Origin: Caballeronia terrestris
GTDB taxonomy: Bacteria; Pseudomonadota; Gammaproteobacteria; Burkholderiales; Burkholderiaceae
Direction of reading: 5' to 3'
Assembly (NCBI RefSeq): GCF_001544515.1
Contig: NZ_FCOL02000011.1
Span: 62,001 to 126,000 of the forward strand
DNA: 64,000 nt
Shown: positions 47,585 to 49,737 of the stretch, one piece after another
Numbering within the stretch: the first letter of the stretch is position 1
Layout of the letters: the number at the start of each line of letters is the position of its first letter
The notes under the pieces: generated by a model
Seen by the model: only the letters and a program-made list of their open reading frames with translations
Database searches by the model: none
Told to the model about the DNA's origin: nothing
Program-made: the position numbers and the translations under genes

Positions 47585-48079
47585 TCACGTCTCCCCATTC
47601 CCGTCATCGGCGGGAAGAGTCTTCGGCACGAACGCTCCCGCGCGCTCGCGAATCGCTTCGATCTCGCCGGTCACAAACGTCCGGTTATCCGCCGCGAGCG
47701 CGCTCTGGTACGACGCGCCTTCCGGCAACCGATGCAGCAGCGCGCGCAATTCACCTTGCGTCGTCTGCTCGACGGGTTCGAAGTTGTACAACCGCAGCAT
47801 TAGTTCCGTGCGCTCATGCAGCACGAACAAACACCCCGCGAACACCGCGACGCCCAGCACCTCCTGCGCGCCGAAGCGAAACTCGGCCGGCACCGGCGAA
47901 AACGGCAGCCAAACGATCGCGGCGAAGCCGGCGAGCGCCAGCGCGATCGTCACGTTCAGCAAGAGCCGCACGCGCGCGACGATCCGGTCATGTTCCGCCC
48001 GGAGCTGCCCGGCCGATTTCGGCACGAGCGCAGTACGTTGTTTTTGCTGGCGAAGTTCTGAGAACGGGAGAGCGGCCAT
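47585..48079 (-). CDS. Two-TM membrane protein of unknown function
   Basis: The 164-residue protein has two hydrophobic segments near residues 41-62 (LLLNVTIALALAGFAAIVWL) and 75-92 (VLGVAVFAGCLFVLHERTEL), flanked by charged cytoplasmic parts with a C-terminal region rich in Glu and Arg. I recognise no motif. The ATG at 48079 has only a weak site. Its stop codon lies 12 bases before the degenerate vapB remnant, so the latter may have been its operon neighbour. Confidence 0.65.
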   Translation of the reverse strand: MAALPFSELRQQKQRTALVPKSAGQLRAEHDRIVARVRLLLNVTIALALAGFAAIVWLPFSPVPAEFRFGAQEVLGVAVFAGCLFVLHERTELMLRLYNFEPVEQTTQGELRALLHRLPEGASYQSALAADNRTFVTGEIEAIRERAGAFVPKTLPADDGNGET

Positions 48080-48185
48080 GTGAGCGGTGTGCCTCGAAGC
48101 GTGAAGGTAACGCCCGTATTAACGCTTGGCTTACAGGAACGTTGACGCCGGTTACGTCCTGTTTCATCACACACGCCCGAAAATT

Positions 48186-49661
48186 TCACGCCTTGAGCGG
48201 CGTCCTCACGCTGGCGGTGCCGTCGGCGATCTGGCTCGCGAACACGAGCGCCTCGACGATCGTCCCGAATACCTCGTCGCGTACCTTCGGGTCCATCACG
48301 CGCAGCACGTACGACGGGTGATAGGTCGGCACGACCAGCCGTCCGCGATGCTCGATCGTCTTGCCGAGATACTCGGAGAGCGCCGTCCGATGTCCCGTCA
48401 GCGACTTGAGCGCCGTCGCCCCGAGCGCGACGACGACCTTCGGCGCGACGCGCGCCAGTTCCTCGTCGAGCCAGTGGCGGCAGGCCTCGCGCTCGCGCTG
48501 CGCGGGCTGCTGCTGCACGCGCTCCTCGCCCTGCGGCTCCCACTTGAAGTGCTTCACCGCGTTGGTCAGATAGAGCGTCTCGCGCGGGATCTGCGCCTCG
48601 GCGAGCGCTTCGTCGAGCAGCTTGCCCGCCGGCCCGACGAACGGCTTGCCCGTCAGGTCCTCCTGATCGCCCGGCTGCTCGCCGACCAGCATGATCCGCG
48701 CGTTCGCCGGCCCGATCCCCCCGACCGGCTGCGTCGCGTTGCGCCACAGCGCGCAGCGCTTGCAGGCATCGAGGGAGGGGGGCTTCGTCTTGAGCGACGG
48801 CCCGTCGAGCGGCTCCATGTCGATCGCGACTTCCATCTCCGGCGGCACGTTGCGCGGACGGCGGTCGCGCCGCGCGCCGGGATCGGGGCGGCCGATCAGC
48901 GCCGGATCGGCTTTCGCGTCCGGCGGACTCTTCCAGTAGCGCACCGGCATGTGCGACGCCATCTCGGCTGCGTTGGCGAGCGCCGGGGCGAACGTGCTTT
49001 CGTAGTACGCGAGCCAGAGCGCTTCGATCGCGTCGCCGCTGACGGCTTCGCCCGGCGACGCCAGTTCGGTCGGCTTCGGCTCCGGCTCGCTCGTGCGATC
49101 GACGCGCAGCAGGGCGCCATCCCAGAACGCGGCGCCGTGCGGCGTCGCGATCATCCAGGTGGCGCTGCCCATGCGCGTCGCGAAACTGAGCGCGGCGTGC
49201 TCCAGCAGGTCGTGCACCGGCTCGAACCAACTGATGAACTCGGGCGGCCCGAGCGACGGATCGCGATGCCGAAAGCGCAGGAACTTCTTCATGTGCGTCT
49301 CTTCGGCCTGCACGGCTTCGACCATCTCATGCAGGCGCCGGCCGTCGGGGTCGTCCAGCGAGGCGACCGCGCGATCGCCCTGCGTCCAGCGCCAGAGCGC
49401 CTTGTAGAGAAACGGCCAGCGGTCGCGCACGCGATAGCACGAGGCTGTCTCGATCATGTCGAGAAAGCCGCGCGCGATCTTCACGGGCGGCGGCGCGCCG
49501 GGCGCGTCCGGGATGGGATCGATGGTGCCGAACACGGTCGCCGAGTCGGATGCCTCTCGCCACAAGAGCCCCTCCGGCGAGATGCCGCGCGCGAGCAGGT
49601 CCCGCGCGGCGTCGCGCCACGAGGCATAGGACGGTTCGATGACGACGCTGTTCAACGGCAT
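48186..49661 (-). CDS. DUF4130-UdgX fusion: uracil-DNA glycosylase superfamily protein with altered catalytic loop
   Basis: The 491-residue protein joins a DUF4130 domain (about 1-240) to a UdgX-type domain (about 290-480). Motif A GEQPGDQED is at 327-335, the iron-sulfur CxxC (C300, C303) is in ACKRCALW, and motif B HPSYVLR begins at 448. UdgX proteins bind uracil-DNA covalently through a His in a KRRIH loop; here that loop reads GEERVQQQ (378-385), so the His position is probably Q383 and two basic residues are Glu. The start ATG at 49661 lies 28 bases from a LexA box; a start at 49724 would read through it. No radical SAM partner gene is adjacent. Confidence 0.8.
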   Translation of the reverse strand: MPLNSVVIEPSYASWRDAARDLLARGISPEGLLWREASDSATVFGTIDPIPDAPGAPPPVKIARGFLDMIETASCYRVRDRWPFLYKALWRWTQGDRAVASLDDPDGRRLHEMVEAVQAEETHMKKFLRFRHRDPSLGPPEFISWFEPVHDLLEHAALSFATRMGSATWMIATPHGAAFWDGALLRVDRTSEPEPKPTELASPGEAVSGDAIEALWLAYYESTFAPALANAAEMASHMPVRYWKSPPDAKADPALIGRPDPGARRDRRPRNVPPEMEVAIDMEPLDGPSLKTKPPSLDACKRCALWRNATQPVGGIGPANARIMLVGEQPGDQEDLTGKPFVGPAGKLLDEALAEAQIPRETLYLTNAVKHFKWEPQGEERVQQQPAQREREACRHWLDEELARVAPKVVVALGATALKSLTGHRTALSEYLGKTIEHRGRLVVPTYHPSYVLRVMDPKVRDEVFGTIVEALVFASQIADGTASVRTPLKA

Positions 49662-49688
49662 GACTGGATCGGCAAAAATCGATGAAAG

Positions 49689-49708
49689 TACTGTATATCC
49701 ATACAGTA
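49689..49708. promoter_or_regulatory. LexA (SOS) box upstream of the UdgX-like gene
   Basis: TACTGTATATCCATACAGTA carries the CTGT-N8-ACAG core (49691-49706) and matches the E. coli-type LexA consensus almost exactly, as expected for beta-proteobacteria. It ends 28 bases before the minus-strand ATG at 49661 and overlaps the expected transcription start, a classic repressing position. DNA damage should therefore induce the gene. Confidence 0.85.
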
Positions 49709-49737
49709 TTCTAACGACGCCCACGCCGTCGCCGCAA
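49708..49737 (-). promoter_or_regulatory. Candidate promoter of the UdgX-like gene
   Basis: On the minus strand, TTGCGG (49737-49732) and TAGAAT (49713-49708, five of six -10 matches) are separated by 18 bases. The -10 adjoins the LexA box so that LexA would cover the transcription start. Confidence 0.5.

Follow-up and report, generated by a model that had tools for sequence, protein, structure and literature searches.

The cross-linking of UdgX to DNA has been assigned to a single histidine, H109, with E52 as its dyad partner, and the pair R107 plus H109 serves as the published criterion for the family (PMC10359453). With each of the six residues tested in place of H109, Gln among them, the covalent complex disappeared and uracil-DNA glycosylase (UDG) activity emerged, at varying levels: H109Q is a poor enzyme (kcat/Km of 0.123 x10^-3 per min per nM vs. 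0.671 for H109G), and H109K of the Mycobacterium protein is likewise a poor catalyst (PMC10359453). In UdgX from Mycobacterium smegmatis (MsmUdgX), Arg107 anchors the loop to D56/D59; no activity was detected for N91A and H178A, E52A is much reduced, and D59A and R107A combine no detected activity with disturbed folding (PMC10776899). Family 4 UDG enzymes carry A/G53, P107, and N109 at the corresponding sites (PMC10359453). The physiological role of UdgX is described as largely unknown, and cells are believed to rely on RecA-dependent pathways or on proteases to clear its complexes with DNA (PMC10359453). Some betaproteobacteria, Caballeronia arationis being named among them, have several udgx genes per genome; the portion of that article at hand does not discuss natural changes at position 109 (PMC10776899). 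DUF4130 had already been predicted to be linked with SplB-like radical-SAM proteins and with uracil glycosylases (PMC3323433, PMC3765255), and LexA had been predicted to control “splB” in alpha- and betaproteobacteria, and “hypA,” “hypB,” and “splB” in betaproteobacteria (PMC3323433). None of the literature matches listed concerns LexA control of an orphan UdgX-type gene, and none of the open-licence ones describes a natural UdgX lacking the histidine. Here we describe such a protein, encoded in a stretch of 64,000 nucleotides of Caballeronia terrestris DNA (hereafter the window) from a genome of 8.2 Mb. Its gene belongs to a paralogous clade, B, related to the canonical fused copy, A, and is preceded by a LexA box.

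The fusion gene and its active site

The gene and the parts of it discussed below are as follows.

48186..49661, minus strand: DUF4130-UdgX fusion gene, clade B paralogue, 491 aa (translation and family matches)
48927..49640, minus strand: DUF4130/TIGR03915 domain, residues 8-245 (Pfam, NCBIfam)
48252..48791, minus strand: UdgX/UDG domain (TIGR03914 stretch), residues 291-470 (NCBIfam)
48657..48683, minus strand: motif A, GEQPGDQED, with the E52, Q53, D56, and D59 equivalents, intact (alignment)
48543..48566, minus strand: TNAVKHFK, with the equivalents of uracil-binding Asn91 and of Lys94, intact (alignment)
48507..48530, minus strand: R-loop GEERVQQQ, residues 378-385, in place of GKRRLHKT, Arg107 equivalent kept (alignment)
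48513..48515, minus strand: codon CAG, Gln383 at the His109 position (translation)
48300..48320, minus strand: motif B, HPSYVLR, intact (alignment)

The C-terminal half matches UdgX TIGR03914 with 231.6 bits (curated cut-off 189.95, NCBIfam), and the N-terminal half matches TIGR03915 with 142.3 bits (cut-off 112.25, NCBIfam) and DUF4130 with 89.5 (cut-off 27, Pfam). The reading frame stays open further upstream, to a GTG at 49724 (512 aa); more likely the ATG at 49661 serves as start, since the LexA box falls within the part that the GTG adds. Antisense to the whole gene runs a 519-aa frame (48126-49685, plus strand), whose arginine-rich translation resembles that of a shadow frame in GC-rich DNA.

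The original prediction, made from the DNA letters, placed Gln383 at the histidine position of a loop reading GEERVQQQ, and this holds: the loop aligns without a gap to GKRRLHKTP of the canonical fused copies (40 examined, all from Caballeronia). An alternative register bringing a His into the loop was sought and rejected, as the loop has the canonical length and there is no His between KHFK and CRHW. A sequencing error at Gln383 was rejected as well, the C. humi (98% identity) and C. glathei (84%) proteins likewise having Gln. Motifs A and B were rightly said to be intact; motif B contains R184 and has Tyr at its S/A position, the same as in the canonical A copies. The pocket keeps E52, Q53, F65, N91, K94, H178, and R184, and the loop anchor D56-D59-R107 is complete, Arg381 being the Arg107 equivalent. 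What has changed is the loop itself: of the R107 plus H109 signature the Arg is kept and the His is Gln383, and of the basic KRR only the third residue remains, the protein reading GEER. Two Glu residues at basic positions had also been noted, and they are there, but their tie to the loss of His does not stand: position 106 is Glu in 35/35 Caballeronia orthologues, those bearing His109 included, and at position 105 an acidic residue stands in 22 of the 33 distinct Caballeronia B domains tallied, again with His109-bearing ones among them. The Glu residues were therefore rejected as part of the His loss, and the change of R106 to Glu most simply preceded it.

Its fold, model score, and phylogeny all mark the protein as derived from UdgX. 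Judged by its residues it is not classed as a working UdgX, because the R107 plus H109 signature is broken. This substitution, taken together with the published mutants, is strong support for a loss of His-mediated trapping. The earlier expectation that changing the His yields an ordinary excising glycosylase is borne out in that the six H109 mutants lose the adduct and gain UDG activity; “ordinary,” however, overstates what H109Q can do. Structural comparison points to the same mutant, 6ioc (H109Q of UdgX) being the first PDB match both by sequence and by Foldseek, although other UdgX entries score nearly as well and 6ioc is 23rd, tied, among the 50 VIA matches listed. None of those 50 extends into the DUF4130 half, on whose fold they bring no evidence. 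AlphaFold models the whole protein with low confidence (pLDDT 63.1, pTM 0.41), and residues 375-390 lie below 50; the model is therefore silent on where Gln383 points.

Clade B and the repeated loss of His109

The original prediction implicitly dealt with a single odd protein. It turns out instead to be a member of a paralogue clade that has a LexA box and in which the loop has decayed repeatedly. An intact clade B orthologue occurs in 35 of the 58 Caballeronia genomes searched, its own included, at 73-100% identity, the nearest named relative among the loci found being C. humi, whose protein is 98% identical over its length. Residue 109 of these 35 is His in 27 (C. pedi among them), Gln in four, Pro in two, and Leu in two (C. 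concitans being one). Their loops vary, with insertions in some and an invariant Arg107; E52 and H178 are present in all 33 distinct domains tallied, and N91 in 35/35. In a tree built without the loop, the His-less genes lie in three places: a group of five (the window gene and its counterparts in C. humi, C. arationis, C. telluris, and C. glathei, with Q or P; support 93/88, and 94/79 in a second tree), the pair L024/L034 (Leu), and L073 (Gln). The starred branches force three changes, and hence at least three losses of His109 within Caballeronia B (8/35 genes). The closest sisters of the window gene have Pro, not Gln. Since Pro and Leu also occur there in relatives, position 109 seems to be an unconstrained site and not one selected to hold a water. 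The window protein looks like a repair enzyme evolving away from self-trapping, His109 having been lost independently in relatives.

The clade reaches beyond the genus. Among 299 genomes sampled from the family, 53 gave a match at E <= 1e-120, other genera being represented, and eight non-Caballeronia copies (L160-L167) were read, from two genera designated g13 and g20. They form one clade with Caballeronia B (support 100/100, 25 rows). All eight keep His109, have Glu for D56, and have D59 changed. The five g20 copies (L163-L167) read TYAVKHYK, with Tyr at the uracil-binding Asn91 (5/5) beside the kept His109. Two further g20 matches, in G145 and G236, may also belong to clade B.

Outside clade B the histidine is almost invariant, being kept in 148 of 149 distinct UdgX domains; these come mostly from matches over the UdgX cut-off, weak or odd members being under-sampled. 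Left outside the 149 are L196 (whose loop has His), L158, L224, L004, and L005 (the last two weak or family-4-like matches), and also the broken B pieces L057, L060, L074, L075, and L076. The one exception, L059, has Asn at 109, and clade B is thus not the sole His-less case. L059 is a DUF4130-UdgX fusion from a Bdellovibrionaceae MAG, and joins this Asn to Arg107 and Gln53 in a mix of UdgX and family 4 features. N91, R107, H109, and D59 are all present in 27/43 B domains vs. 145/149 others. For His loss alone (8/43 vs. 1/149), Fisher's test gives p = 2.7e-5 with related genes treated as independent, and the count of three changes on the tree is the safer measure.

The contrast with copy A is sharpest in the loop. 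Among the 35 B genes its mean pairwise identity is 61.1%, with gaps in seven columns; the 40 A genes, in every one of which KRRLHK is identical, reach 98.8% without a gap. The loop is the least conserved segment in B and the most conserved in A. The parts of the UDG domain before and after it are 85.1% and 88.9% identical in B, and 86.4% and 75.0% in A. The release of constraint in B is confined to the loop. Pairwise dN/dS (NG86) is 0.130–0.227 for eight His-keeping B pairs, 0.079–0.165 for seven A pairs, 0.155–0.280 for five pairs of the Q/P group, 0.163 for the two Leu genes, and 0.234 for L069 (His) compared with L073 (Gln); in the UDG half the window and C. humi genes give 0.394, with few changes. 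Values are well below 1 in both halves of B. The B gene is therefore constrained, somewhat less than A, and purifying selection continues in lineages without His109, where values at the upper end show that some relaxation is real.

Three Caballeronia genomes, all reduced in size, have B in broken form (G003, G005, and G019; pieces L057, L060, L074, L075, and L076), and two of them correspond to Candidatus Paraburkholderia calva and kirkii. In another genome, G015, His109 is lost, motif B is changed to HTS, and the A copy is in pieces.

LexA box, canonical copy and neighbouring genes

Two further features flank the gene.

49689..49708, minus strand: LexA (SOS) box TACTGTATGGATATACAGTA, a 20-base palindrome 27 bases upstream of the ATG (consensus and half-site match)
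47585..48079, minus strand: 164-aa protein with no Pfam match, downstream of B in the same direction (locus comparison)

Scored against a 20-base sequence that we take to be the LexA consensus, the box agrees at 18/20 bases, and no other site in the window reaches 14/20. It is also the only exact CTGT-N8-ACAG there, with no mismatch to the half-site pattern. With one mismatch allowed the window holds nine matches where 8.73 are expected by chance, and the weight therefore rests on the exact match and on its conservation. This conservation is complete, a box lying upstream of all 43 clade B genes examined (Caballeronia 35/35, g13 3/3, g20 5/5). An anchored scan gave 8/8 core bases in 34 of the 35 Caballeronia genes, the box of L071 being found on reading the whole locus, and mononucleotide shuffles of the upstream regions gave 0/2250. 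Over the whole source genome, allowing up to two mismatches to the pattern gives ten places, vs. one for the reversed control; six of the ten were read, and they lie at B itself and beside genes judged by eye to encode LexA, RecA, an ImuA-like protein, and a radical-SAM protein of another type, and beside the operon of TIGR03916 and A. That other radical-SAM gene (L246), the second of the source genome and not of TIGR03916 type, has its box with one mismatch. The box precedes the radical-SAM gene in 5/5 A operons inspected, and none was found in the scanned stretch of 14 other UdgX loci (13 standalone ones and L122, a broken A piece). Judging from the box, the B gene is probably damage-inducible through LexA.

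The sole TIGR03916 match of the source genome adjoins copy A on contig C14, another contig than that of B, and among 22 genomes checked a TIGR03916 match (E <= 1e-60) was found in 16, each time beside A, G015 having fragments of both. By coordinate comparison none adjoins B in these 22 genomes, and a TIGR03916 partner for B was rejected. Six genomes (G011, G025, G105, G089, G069, and G293) have B with neither TIGR03916 nor A detected, and B thus persists without the radical-SAM partner. The 164-aa protein stands beside B in 11/11 Caballeronia loci compared (10 distinct genomes; partly matched in L233) and was not found in the five loci of g13 and g20. The clade also has neighbours in common. 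A MobA-like gene adjoins B in each of the five long loci compared, and the three g20 loci among them carry xanthine-dehydrogenase-like genes. The source genome also has a standalone UdgX (L003, G000:C1:120785-121288), which keeps KRRMH and whose frame departs before motif B; it looks truncated.

Interpretation and comparison with known systems

The reading that we favor, at a probability of about 0.5, is that of an SOS-induced DUF4130-UdgX paralogue which has lost trapping and most likely performs slow, water-driven excision of uracil. LexA would repress the gene until DNA is damaged. The UDG domain would probably still flip uracil into the pocket described above, with the loop presumably still tied by Arg107 to D56/D59. 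Gln at 109 would offer no nucleophile for C1', and a Glu52-activated water would most likely complete the reaction, the abasic site being released slowly, while the DUF4130 half would act without a radical-SAM partner. Slow excision is most likely by likeness to the engineered H109Q Mycobacterium enzyme, and it is the most economical reading because E52 and the uracil contacts are kept. Against it stand the Pro of the closest sisters, the acidic loop residues, which are absent from the Mycobacterium mutants, the partly relaxed selection in His-less lineages, and the 27/35 Caballeronia B genes that keep His109, clade B being not uniformly non-trapping. In its other genera, moreover, the uracil Asn or Asp59 is changed yet His109 is kept, and uracil chemistry may thus not be the function selected in the clade.

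Catalysis might have been given up altogether, the UDG domain binding uracil or abasic sites non-covalently and bringing in DUF4130 or other repair factors. The variation of position 109 among Q, P, and L in His-less lineages, as if no chemistry depended on it, would fit such a recognizer, as would the poor catalysis of H109Q and H109K (PMC10359453) and the g20 relatives without the uracil-binding Asn91; the uracil-release residues are nonetheless kept throughout Caballeronia B (E52, H178, and N91 in every domain tallied), and we consider this explanation rather unlikely. Less likely again is a change of target, akin to the other lesion that the original prediction allowed for, in which clade B would have moved to a non-uracil base lesion of the SOS response, with uracil trapping no longer selected. 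Tyr at Asn91 in the g20 copies, together with Glu at D56 and the altered D59 in all eight non-Caballeronia ones, speaks for it; all eight keep the LexA box, and their five long loci share the MobA-like neighbor. The window protein itself keeps Asn91, D56, and D59.

That B is simply a decaying duplicate, its loop drifting while canonical A covers the function, appears quite improbable. The broken copies in the three reduced-size genomes, the state of G015, and the slightly higher dN/dS of the His-less pairs are what decay would leave, but full-length intact frames in 35/58 genomes, dN/dS well below 1 in both halves, the LexA box and shared neighbor across three genera, and the retention of B in the six genomes lacking any detected A or TIGR03916 are not. 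Trapping through another residue, such as a Glu of the acidic loop, is hardly credible: PDB entry 6l6s, titled as an H109E UdgX mutant cross-linked to DNA, indicates that a carboxylate at 109 can form an adduct, but Glu is at 105 and 106 here, not 109, and the published H109Q lost the adduct (PMC10359453).

Taken more widely, and tentatively, clade B could be a separate SOS-induced branch of UdgX without a radical-SAM partner, in which self-trapping has been abandoned piecemeal, through the His in three lineages of Caballeronia and through the uracil Asn or the anchoring Asp in the related genera. If so, it would represent a natural path, within the SOS response, by which a suicide cross-linker returns to turnover or acquires a new lesion as target. 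Abundant production of a trap during SOS may cost more than it gains, because UdgX-DNA complexes are thought to need RecA-dependent pathways or proteases. UdgX is used in genome-wide uracil methods; here the trap appears dismantled in a LexA-box paralogue, while the canonical A of the same genome keeps its loop. Nature supplies His, Gln, Pro, and Leu orthologues whose comparison could tell whether the cell needs trapping or excision, and the LexA boxes indicate the condition under which the function of B should be sought.

How does the proposed slow, water-driven excision by an SOS-linked paralogue sit among the known systems? Relative to MsmUdgX, the protein has Gln for His109 and Glu at K105 and R106, is fused to DUF4130, and has a LexA box upstream. 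With the engineered H109Q MsmUdgX (PDB 6ioc, 8iio, 8iip) it shares residue 109 and the rest of the site, but that protein is a laboratory mutant in which the other residues of the KRRIH loop stay basic. The canonical fusion copy A (TIGR03915 plus TIGR03914, with a TIGR03916 neighbor) has the same two domains and a LexA box; unlike B, it has KRRLH (40/40) and the adjacent TIGR03916 (16 genomes). Finally, the family 4 enzymes (UDGa) have the same fold and a hydrolytic mechanism, which for the window protein is a proposal, the latter carrying Q, R, and Q at positions 53, 107, and 109.
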